From: Cyclobacteriaceae bacterium
GTDB lineage: Bacteria; Bacteroidota; Bacteroidia; Cytophagales; Cyclobacteriaceae
Direction: 5' to 3'
Assembly: GCA_019638285.1 (NCBI GenBank)
Contig: JAHBUB010000020.1
Location: 1-58,072, forward strand
Length of the DNA stretch: 58,072 bases
The notes under the pieces are model-generated. The model was not told the origin of the DNA. It did not search any database and saw only the letters and a program-made list of their open reading frames with translations. Below, piece after piece: positions 11,640 through 13,650 of this stretch. Every line of letters starts with the position of its first letter. Position 1 is the first letter of the stretch. The position numbers and the translations under genes were made by a program.

Positions 11640-12265
11640 TAGCCCACGTTTCGAACGAGGGCTTGTGAATCAATTGTTTTAGGCATTTTTTACTTGGCTC
11701 AATGTAATCGATAGAATCGCTTTTCTCATACGTCCTCGTTACAAACGAGGACGATTTTACATTTTTATACTACAATCACTCTTACCAAAGGCTTATGAAT
11801 TAATTGTTTGGCACTTTTTATTTGGCTCAATGTAAGCGATAGAATCGCTTTTCTCATGCGTCCTCGTTACAAACGAGGACGATTAACACGATTTTACATA
11901 TTTTATACTGCGATCATTTTTACAAAATTGAATAGTCCTCGTTTGTAGGGAGGACTTACGAATCGAGTGTTTTTAACACTTTTTACTTTTTCAATCTCGG
12001 TCATATATAATTTTGAGCTCATGTAAGCGATAGAATCGCTTTTTTCATGCGTCCTCGTTACAAACGAGGACGATTAACACGATTTTACATTTTTATACTG
12101 CGGTCATTTTTACCAAATTGAATAGTCCTCGTTTTTAACGAGGACTATTCAATTGAGTGCTTTTAGTGCTTTTACTTTCTCAACCTCAAGCATATTTGTT
12201 GGCTTAGATATTCACTAAATAGTCTTTTTCATTTCTAATGAGGACTTGTTAATTATTCCCAACTC
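11640..12265. repeat. REP-like repeat cluster next to the RAYT gene
   Basis: About 630 bp made of diverged copies of one unit. Each unit combines (a) a paired hairpin, AGCGAT-AGA-ATCGCT followed about 10 bp later by the CGTCCTCGTT stem (ACA loop), at 11706-11753, 11835-11881 and 12026-12072; (b) a segment beginning TTTTATACT that repeats the last codons of the transposase gene, near 11764, 11902 and 12092; and (c) a second hairpin type built on AGTCCTCGTT, at 11641-11663, about 11934-11955 and 12118-12152. Unit spacing is roughly 130-190 bp. Such paired palindromes beside a Y1 transposase define REP/RAYT loci in other bacteria. Confidence 0.85.
12118..12152. repeat. Perfect 16-bp-stem palindrome (second REP type)
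   Basis: TTGAATAGTCCTCGTT and its exact reverse complement flank a three-base TTT loop. It is the best-preserved copy of the second hairpin type; the copies at 11641 and 11934 carry mismatches, which suggests this one is the youngest. Confidence 0.85.
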
Positions 12266-12267
12266 TT

Positions 12268-12822
12268 TTATACTACGATCACTTTTACCAAACCCTTTTC
12301 TCTTCTGCTATAGTCACAGGCGCTGCTGTATAAATAATCATCTGCATTTCGTACTAAGCCTGCTCTTACAGGATTGTCATGAATGTAATCAATCTTTTCA
12401 ATTATATCGATGTTGGAATTATCAAGGTCAATGGCATGATTTCCATCAGTCCAAAATTTGTAATCTCTGGCCCTGCCTGTCCTTCTTGCTTCAAATGAAA
12501 ATTTATCTAGTAGCCAGTCCTTTCGACTTTCCGGTATTTCCTGAATTGCTTCCACTATTCTCTTTGAGGTAAATTTTTTGAAATCTCTTAGGAAGTCGGA
12601 CATTCGGTGAGGAGGCCTGCATGACGCTACTAGATGTACATGATTTGACATAATGACCCATGCATAAACATTTAACCCTTTGGCTTCAATGCAAAAATTT
12701 AGTGAGTTAACCACTATGTCTCTGAGTTCTTTACGACTGAAGGCATCGATCCAGTTGATAACAGTCAGCGTTAAGAAGTACTTTGCGTGTTGATCTTGGA
12801 TTAAGTATCTGTCGCCTGCCAT
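12268..12822 (-). mobile_element. REP-associated tyrosine transposase (RAYT, Y1_Tnp family)
   Basis: 184 aa single-strand HUH nuclease. It has the metal-binding HVH at residues 61-63 within MSNHVHLVASCRP, and the candidate nucleophile Tyr146 in DYIHDNPVRAG, the typical RAYT C-terminal motif. Family enzymes cut and rejoin single strands at REP hairpins and are usually domesticated single-copy genes. The gene is intact from ATG to stop. REP-like hairpins lie on both sides (11640-12265 and 12873-12919), and the gene's last six codons recur inside the repeat units. This points to past duplication of the 3' flank. Confidence 0.88.
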
Positions 12823-12872
12823 GAGTTGGTGTTTAGATTATTTCTTTGATCATTAATTTCGGGTTGTATGTA

Positions 12873-12919
12873 AGCGATGGAATCGCCTTTCTCGTGCGTC
12901 CTCGTTGCAAACGAGGACG
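12873..12919. repeat. REP-like paired hairpin, upstream side of RAYT
   Basis: Same two-hairpin unit as on the other side: GCGAT-GGA-ATCGC, then a perfect 10-bp CGTCCTCGTT stem around a GCA loop, followed by GATTAA. It lies between the transposase start and the nth remnant, in the same orientation as the copies at 11706, 11835 and 12026. Confidence 0.85.
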
Positions 12920-12931
12920 ATTAATACGGTT

Positions 12932-13003
12932 GAAAACTTCTGGATTTGGATTGTACTTGTTGAGAACGGAAAGGATGTTTTTTACTTTTTCAGCCTTGGT
13001 CAT
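12932..13003 (-). pseudogene. 5' remnant of a second nth gene (24 codons)
   Basis: The minus strand from 13003 encodes MTKAEKVKNILSVLNK and onward to PNPEV, identical at 18 of 24 positions to the start of the intact Nth at 11607. Many codons differ only in the third base. The remnant therefore comes from a diverged functional homologue and is not a freshly decayed duplicate. After codon 24 the homology stops and the REP-bearing DNA begins. It starts 17 bp after the stop of the cyclophilin gene. Confidence 0.8.
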
Positions 13004-13020: not shown

Positions 13021-13650
13021 CTATTTTACTATACTCACTTTTTTGATGTAGTCAAGCTCAGGAAAACTATTAAGAAGATATTTATTTCCATAGACTTGAA
13101 TAGAATCTTGCCTTGGACTATTACCATATCCCGAATAAAGCAGGTCTACTGCCGCCTTATTTTCTATTACTTTCCCCACTACCGGAAACCCACTCACGTT
13201 AAAATACTTTAATGTGTCCAGCCGTGGAGAGTTGCTTTTTATGTTAATAAATAATTGAGTGCCCCTTGTGTTGGGGCCTCCTCTGGCGAATGATATGGTG
13301 CCTTCTGTGTTGGGCTCAATTACAGGTTCGTCTATTAGCTTATGACCTTCCCAAAATGCATTAAGTGTAGCGTCATTATTGATTCCAAATTGAGCCACGT
13401 AATCTTTTACAACTCGAAATATGGCCCCATCATCATAAAAACCACTTTTAATTAGTTGATACACGCGATCGACAGCTTTAGGAGACCAGGCGCGATGAAA
13501 TTCTGCCACAAAGTCACCTTTTGATGTTTCAAATTTGGCTTTAAAGCTCGCTGGAGCTTCCTTGTTGAGTAGCCTGTTACTTATGCGGGAAGATGAACAG
13601 GAGATGAAAAGGAAAAGAAATATTCCGTATAGGATGTGTGAGGATTTCAT
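13021..13650 (-). CDS. Peptidylprolyl isomerase, cyclophilin-type lipoprotein
   Basis: 209 aa. It has a lipoprotein signal peptide with Cys in LFISC at about residue 18. A cyclophilin fold follows: FETSKGDFVAEFHRAWSPKAVDRVYQLI, FYDDGAIFRVV, GTISFARGGPNTRGTQLFIN and a GFPVVGKVIE segment. It would catalyse proline cis-trans isomerisation in the cell envelope. The active-site Arg (in FRVV) and the GTQLFIN strand are present. An FNR-like palindrome lies about 50 bp upstream of the start. Confidence 0.9.
   Translation of the reverse strand: MKSSHILYGIFLFLFISCSSSRISNRLLNKEAPASFKAKFETSKGDFVAEFHRAWSPKAVDRVYQLIKSGFYDDGAIFRVVKDYVAQFGINNDATLNAFWEGHKLIDEPVIEPNTEGTISFARGGPNTRGTQLFINIKSNSPRLDTLKYFNVSGFPVVGKVIENKAAVDLLYSGYGNSPRQDSIQVYGNKYLLNSFPELDYIKKVSIVK

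Follow-up and report, generated by a model that had tools for sequence, protein, structure and literature searches.

The window, a 58,072-nt stretch of a Cyclobacteriaceae genome, holds on its minus strand (11640-13003) an intact transposase gene that is followed by three units, each of which begins with a copy of the gene's own last 25 nt. Compared with its relatives, the locus is an element of the RAYT/TIRtron type with an array assembled from fragments of the element's right end. The units in the window share a single start point in the gene (p), and two of their three junctions have the same outer tip (T). In 11 related loci, the alignments show a fixed T combined with a variable p. A boundary that is exact on one side and variable on the other constitutes a readable record, in that each junction identifies the joined end as well as the site that received it.

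The transposase, the element ends and the downstream units

Read from 13003 to 11640 on the minus strand, the locus comprises a diverged 69-nt copy of the start of nth (nth', 12935-13003), the left end with two hairpins (12868-12931), the transposase gene (12268-12822), its 3' flank and the three units. The array runs up to an intact nth gene (11607-10972, minus strand; HhH-GPD, endonuclease III-like, PF00730) on the right flank, and the left neighbor is a gene for a cyclophilin-type PPIase (13021-13650, minus strand; PF00160).

The transposase is a RAYT (REP-associated tyrosine transposase, Y1 HUH) with a full ORF of 184 amino acids. Against the curated RAYT model NF047646 (REP_Tyr_transpos), whose cut-off is 80, it scores 93.8 bits; the Pfam family Y1_Tnp (PF01797; cut-off 23) gives 41.3 bits. 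These scores bear out the sequence-only reading's claim of an intact Y1 HUH transposase. Alignment with relatives shows the HUH motif and the region of the catalytic tyrosine to be intact; NHVH and YIHDNP fall on the invariant columns H61, H63 and Y146 of a nine-sequence alignment. In searches of whole genomes, the proteins most similar to it (G076, G063 and G066; ~54-58% identity) belong to other families of the order, and the best matches within the genus reach 46% identity at most. The closest named relative, a Cyclobacteriaceae MAG (L180, JAOUKJ010000022.1), encodes a protein with 62% identity in its best segment. Upstream of that RAYT, we counted by eye about a dozen ~20-nt tandem half-hairpin repeats like GCGTTACAAACGCGGACTA; downstream of it are very short pieces that end at the tip. 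The window's own genome (G000) has five further Y1_Tnp matches, on C16, C1, C7, C85 and C72, with that on C72 below the cut-off. End copies were absent at the C85 match, the one of the five examined for them. The single-contig genome G092 has 22 RAYT matches, and the remaining 95 genomes of the same search have 0 to 12.

Hairpins surround the gene, as had been claimed. Paired hairpins, CGTCCTCGTT..AACGAGGACG with a GCGAT-type partner, lie at 12874-12919, 12025-12072, 11834-11881 and 11706-11753; AGTCCTCGTT-type hairpins lie at 12125-12145 and 11935-11955, and an altered one is at 11641-11663. The two left-end hairpins, 5' of the gene, read CGTCCTCGTTTGCAACGAGGACG (h1, 12897-12919) and GCGATTCCATCGC (h2, ~12874-12886), and the left end folds with a z-score of -4.9. 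Single-strand DNA folding supports seven hairpin stretches (z -3.9 to -11.9); an eighth, at 12205-12250 directly 3' of the gene, shows no fold (z -0.35). As in a TIRtron, inverted repeats flank the RAYT: 12898-12922 and 12121-12145 are 88% complementary over 25 nt. The GTAG tetranucleotide is absent from the 8 nt preceding each of the seven hairpins, and the unpaired tag of the CGTC REP superfamily was not seen, the CGTC here being paired within the h1 stem. Loop orientation suggests that CGTCC hairpins are of the left-end type and AGTCC hairpins of the inverted right-end type. The two larger hairpin types distinguished by the sequence-only reading are both present; rather than two separate REP classes, they more plausibly represent the left end and the right end of a single element, in opposite orientation.

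Unit 0 (12118-12267) is the RAYT's own 3' flank. It holds an nth-start-like ATG (12193), a stretch of possibly decayed hairpins and the right-end hairpin (12125-12145), and it ends at T, directly after ATTCAA. Unit 1 (11928-12117) opens with the last 25 nt of the RAYT gene (12093-12117) and continues with left-end-type h1 (12050-12072) and h2 (12025-12041), an nth-like ATG (12004), a right-end hairpin (11935-11955) and T. The full plan of a unit is visible here: the 3' end of the gene comes first, then the left-end hairpins, a spacer containing the nth-start-like ATG, the right-end hairpin and finally the tip. Unit 2 (11790-11927) has the 25 nt (11903-11927), h1 (11859-11881) and h2 (11834-11850) and is without the right-end hairpin. 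Unit 3 (11640-11789) has the 25 nt (11765-11789), h1 (11731-11753), h2 (11706-11722) and the altered right-end hairpin (11641-11663). In this order, the three gene-end copies are 88, 88 and 92% identical to the gene (E 4e-4, 4e-4 and 9e-6, searched against a 1.5 kb flank), and all of them begin at the same p, TTTGG. The tip GACTATTCAA immediately precedes the copy at two of the three junctions; the remaining junction has lost its right-end hairpin. The alignment of a gene-end copy in each of units 1 to 3 supports two earlier claims: that the downstream units carry the transposase's last codons, and that the array consists of serial copies of the gene's 3' flank rather than of independent REPs.

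The sequence-only reading overlooked nth' (13003-12935) and the short nth-start-like pieces in two units. These 24-nt ATG pieces, at 12193 and 12004 (minus strand), match nth' at 18 and 21 positions, respectively, and the present nth at 16 each. The frame of nth' continues through the left-end hairpins as an ORF of 56 codons (13003-12833) with its stop just 5' of the RAYT; it could be a leader ORF. Between nth' and nth, 49 of 69 nt are identical. The differences number 6, 1 and 13 at the three codon positions, and because they fall mainly at the third, nth' was apparently still functional as a gene while it diverged. We considered a long target duplication made on insertion as its source, but the divergence is coding-like, and arrival together with the element, or a long persistence, would explain it equally well. 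Orthologs of nth are present in 54 of the 58 genus genomes searched, our own included, the others being 76-93% identical. No donor of nth' was found among 30 genus nth genes (own included); the best matches were 53/69 (L074 and L075), and our own gene gave 49.

In the genus, 27 of 29 relatives have a NamZ-like gene upstream of nth (within 100 nt in 26; one of the flanks covered 453 nt only), and no PPIase gene was found upstream of nth in any of the 29 relatives' loci examined over up to 1.5 kb. A PPIase search of 96 genomes returned matches in five, our own included, with the best other at 46%. The window's PPIase gene, its nth' and its RAYT array all sit between the NamZ gene and nth, and the three together look like an imported or inserted block.

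Gene-end copies in related loci and in the genome

The sequence-only reading had suggested that this locus bears on how such arrays grow. The analysis supports that suggestion. Some of the related genes in other Bacteroidota likewise have copies of their ends. At 12 RAYT genes in 11 other loci (L058, with two genes, L057, L150, L236, L189, L144, L146, L151, L208, L183 and L159), the downstream copies end at one tip T and start at variable p. With tip motifs picked after inspection of the loci, we found 44 tip occurrences there. In 31 of them the sequence after the tip maps back to the element; the other 13 stand at the end of an array or lead into unmapped sequence. The junctions that could be mapped have 23 distinct p across the 12 genes, from stop-124 to stop+61, and follow no clear sequence rule. 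T itself lies 0-11 nt beyond the foot of the terminal hairpin (median 5, for 14 typed tips). In L151, five T are each followed by a different p; each of the two L058 genes has three distinct p, L189 has three and L236 two. L208 has eight copies with a single start and a period of ~132 nt, resembling the window array. The tip rule was not seen at five of the 17 genes with downstream 3'-end copies: in L048, L153 and L220 the copy is hundreds of nucleotides distant, and the start of the copy in L132 and L138 does not fall at a tip.

The RAYT of G076 forms a clean element, with the left end CCAATCGCCCTCG.. and a right end that is its inverse. Four copies of the element, 90-97% identical, occupy four places, and their homology ends within ~3 nt of the left tip CCAATCGCCC and the right tip GCGATTGGG. 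Truncated copies are found beside these elements as well as in other families. Tandem left-end copies in G076 begin at the same left tip as the element. The boundaries of the array in G076 are thus those of the element, since the homology stops there and the tandem copies share the left tip. Left-side copies likewise begin at the left tip and end variably, at most 81 nt into the gene (L043a, L048, L058a, L058b and L057). Only ~9 distinct end points could be mapped on that side, several weakly, and many left tips have no parent match.

One array in G076 (L057, on C9) mixes right-end pieces, consisting of 3' end and right end, of two RAYT families. A single DNA search of G076 at E 1e-5, which a diverged copy could escape, did not find the gene of the second family; two-ended mini-elements of that family, ~150-160 bp long, lie on C3 and C23 (L170 and L171). 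Taken together, the second-family ends in L057, the gene not found and the short elements suggest that fragments of this kind can arrive from other places.

To gauge frequency, end copies were counted if they lay on the same strand, were anchored at the gene end and lay at most 1.5 kb away with E ≤1e-3, given at least 300 nt of flank per side; concordant copies are 5' pieces upstream or 3' pieces downstream of the gene. The order-level set held 84 RAYT genes in 77 of 79 loci; 78 of these genes were tested, the window included, with 125 control ORFs from the same loci. Concordant copies were found at 14/78 RAYT genes versus 4/125 control ORFs (p 6e-4), any self-copy at 26/78 versus 9/125, and discordant copies at two RAYT genes and two control ORFs. 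Copies of 3' ends lay downstream in 16 cases and upstream in one; copies of 5' ends lay upstream in four and downstream in one. Among genes collected after the pattern was first noticed, the concordant figures were 9/57 versus 4/94 controls (p 0.03), or 6/57 (p 0.18) when the weak cases L132, L138 and L153 are removed.

A phylum-wide set of 80 named loci, the best 80 of 299, held 77 RAYT genes and 145 control ORFs and showed no significant enrichment of concordant copies (6/77 versus 5/145, p 0.20). In these best 80 of 299 loci, any copy was present at 17/77 RAYT genes versus 10/145 control ORFs, discordant copies at six RAYT genes (two of them tandem paralogs, L241) and two control ORFs, and polarity was looser (15 concordant and six discordant copies). 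For IS200/IS605 transposase genes, 30 of the 32 listed places, from 12 genomes with many near-identical copies, were tested, and none of the 30 had a self-copy of any class (14/78 RAYT genes versus 0/30, p 0.01). The structure is therefore clear where it is present and its frequency is moderate, with enrichment shown for the order-level set.

Dispersal was searched for with the main hairpin and with a 649-nt query of array DNA. The main hairpin pattern (≤2 mismatches) occurs at six places in the 3.98 Mb genome, all six at this locus (C13:11732-12918). The array query gave 11 matches, nine at the locus; the other two, of 23 nt (E 0.008) and 17 nt (E 0.64), look like chance. None of the six reading frames inspected at the 23-nt match, on C1, contained a RAYT C-terminus, and the match was set aside. 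Because every main-hairpin place is local, the dispersed REP family envisaged by the sequence-only reading is not supported, this being the outcome which that reading had itself named as excluding one. What remains is a local element.

How the array may have grown

We lean, with modest confidence, toward a reading in which the RAYT cuts at the tip and the freed end is joined one-endedly to nearby DNA of the element itself, adding truncated copies. The enzyme would cut single-stranded DNA at T, beside the hairpin; the freed end would be joined to a weakly specified site close by within the element itself, probably on the sister strand at a replication fork; and each event would add one truncated copy. 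According to the available text of a treatment of groups 2 and 3, such HUH enzymes act on single-stranded DNA close to hairpins, cutting it at a short site that is chosen with the help of the GTAG guide, and then join a 3' end to the covalent intermediate (PMC8266576). In the window, the first unit was probably multiplied later by unequal exchange, since all three copies have one p. The arrays examined gave no sign of growth that is still going on. A fixed tip near a hairpin, together with a loose second site, fits cutting and joining better than it fits either slippage or nested insertion.

Slippage or template switching at the hairpins could instead have produced the tandem copies with the transposase uninvolved, T being fixed by the hairpin only. 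The units are indeed local and of small size, with p lying between stop-124 and stop+61, and the hairpins fold strongly. Slippage normally relies on microhomology, however, and the 23 distinct junctions have 0 nt of it in 11 cases, 1 nt in nine, 2 nt in one and 3 nt in two. Single-nucleotide microhomology (9/23) is somewhat above chance, but 20/23 junctions have 0-1 nt. Further, T falls within ~3 nt of the boundary between separate copies of the G076 element. IS200/IS605 elements likewise have hairpin ends, yet all 30 of the genes sampled are without such copies. We therefore regard slippage as unlikely, though deserving of some weight.

Another possibility is that whole elements inserted into themselves and that homologous deletion between direct repeats then left a one-sided truncated piece. 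Left-end copies with 45-81 nt of gene do abut the next left end in L043a, L048 and L058a, and G076 contains several near-identical copies of its element. Random insertion should hit the whole ~700-nt element, but all 23 mapped p lie within ~220 nt of T; nor are the two sides complementary in L058a or L048. Nested insertion thus strikes us as quite improbable. A classic REP/RAYT system, in which dispersed REPs gathered around their RAYT, is hardly credible and, as far as this genome goes, already mostly refuted. In its favor, the gene is a member of the RAYT family and its hairpin pairs recall BIME/REPIN organization; against it, the six hairpin places are local and the units include pieces of the gene.

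In its general form, the cutting-and-joining reading would be that Bacteroidota RAYTs perform one-ended, tip-anchored transposition, with a precise cut at one end, near-arbitrary joining nearby and a truncated self-copy per event. This broader proposal we hold tentatively and place somewhat short of probable. If it is true, REP-like arrays would be a record of half-transpositions, and small hairpin elements released from their gene could originate in them. The second-family 3' end in L057, whose gene the single DNA search of G076 did not find, is in line with this proposal.

Relation to known systems

The tip rule hints at how hairpin arrays grow and makes their growth directly testable. In the accessible parts of PMC8266576, the spread of REP sequences is said to be still to be elucidated, and RAYTs are described as being without evidence of mobility. 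If the enzyme makes the junctions, RAYTs such as this one would be more than domesticated genes, being active in one-ended joining, and there would be a source for small hairpin elements.

Elements of this kind are already known. A rule by which truncated self-copies are anchored at the tip was not found in the literature searched on RAYT, REP and TIRYT, mostly outside subscription journals, and the available portions of PMC3733652, PMC6006769 and PMC8266576 do not describe such partial transposase copies. The earlier suggestion that the unit structure is little described for Bacteroidota stands only in part: unusual structures flanking RAYTs have already been reported there (subclass 2.6), whereas gene-end copies go unmentioned in the text available (PMC6006769).

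The IS200/IS605 elements (IS608, ISDra2) share the catalytic superfamily and hairpin ends with the window element (PMC8266576, as far as its available text goes). They differ in that the window RAYT scores 35.8 bits against their model NF033573, under its cut-off of 55, and in that the 30 genes tested were all without end copies. REPtrons and REPINs (GTAG REPs, RAYT groups 2 and 3) also combine an HUH transposase with oppositely oriented flanking hairpins, by the accessible account in PMC8266576; in contrast, the window has neither a GTAG foot nor dispersed copies, and its units hold the gene's 3' end.

Subclass 2.6 (RAYT group 5), as presented in the sections available of PMC6006769, resembles our element in its occurrence in Bacteroidota, similar protein length, HUH motif and unusual flanking structures. 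Its motifs are NH[LIV]H, WQ and YIH[QN]NP; NHVH of the window fits the first, whereas WT and YIHDNP depart from the others. Further, the structures of the window were not found elsewhere in its own genome. For the TIRtron (TIRYT), a RAYT-like gene between long terminal inverted repeats, the available text does not mention tandem copies with gene pieces or a fixed tip with a variable start (PMC3733652). The TIRtron has in common with the window a RAYT-type gene and inverted, hairpin-bearing ends, and copies of its ends can cluster (PMC3733652, same text).
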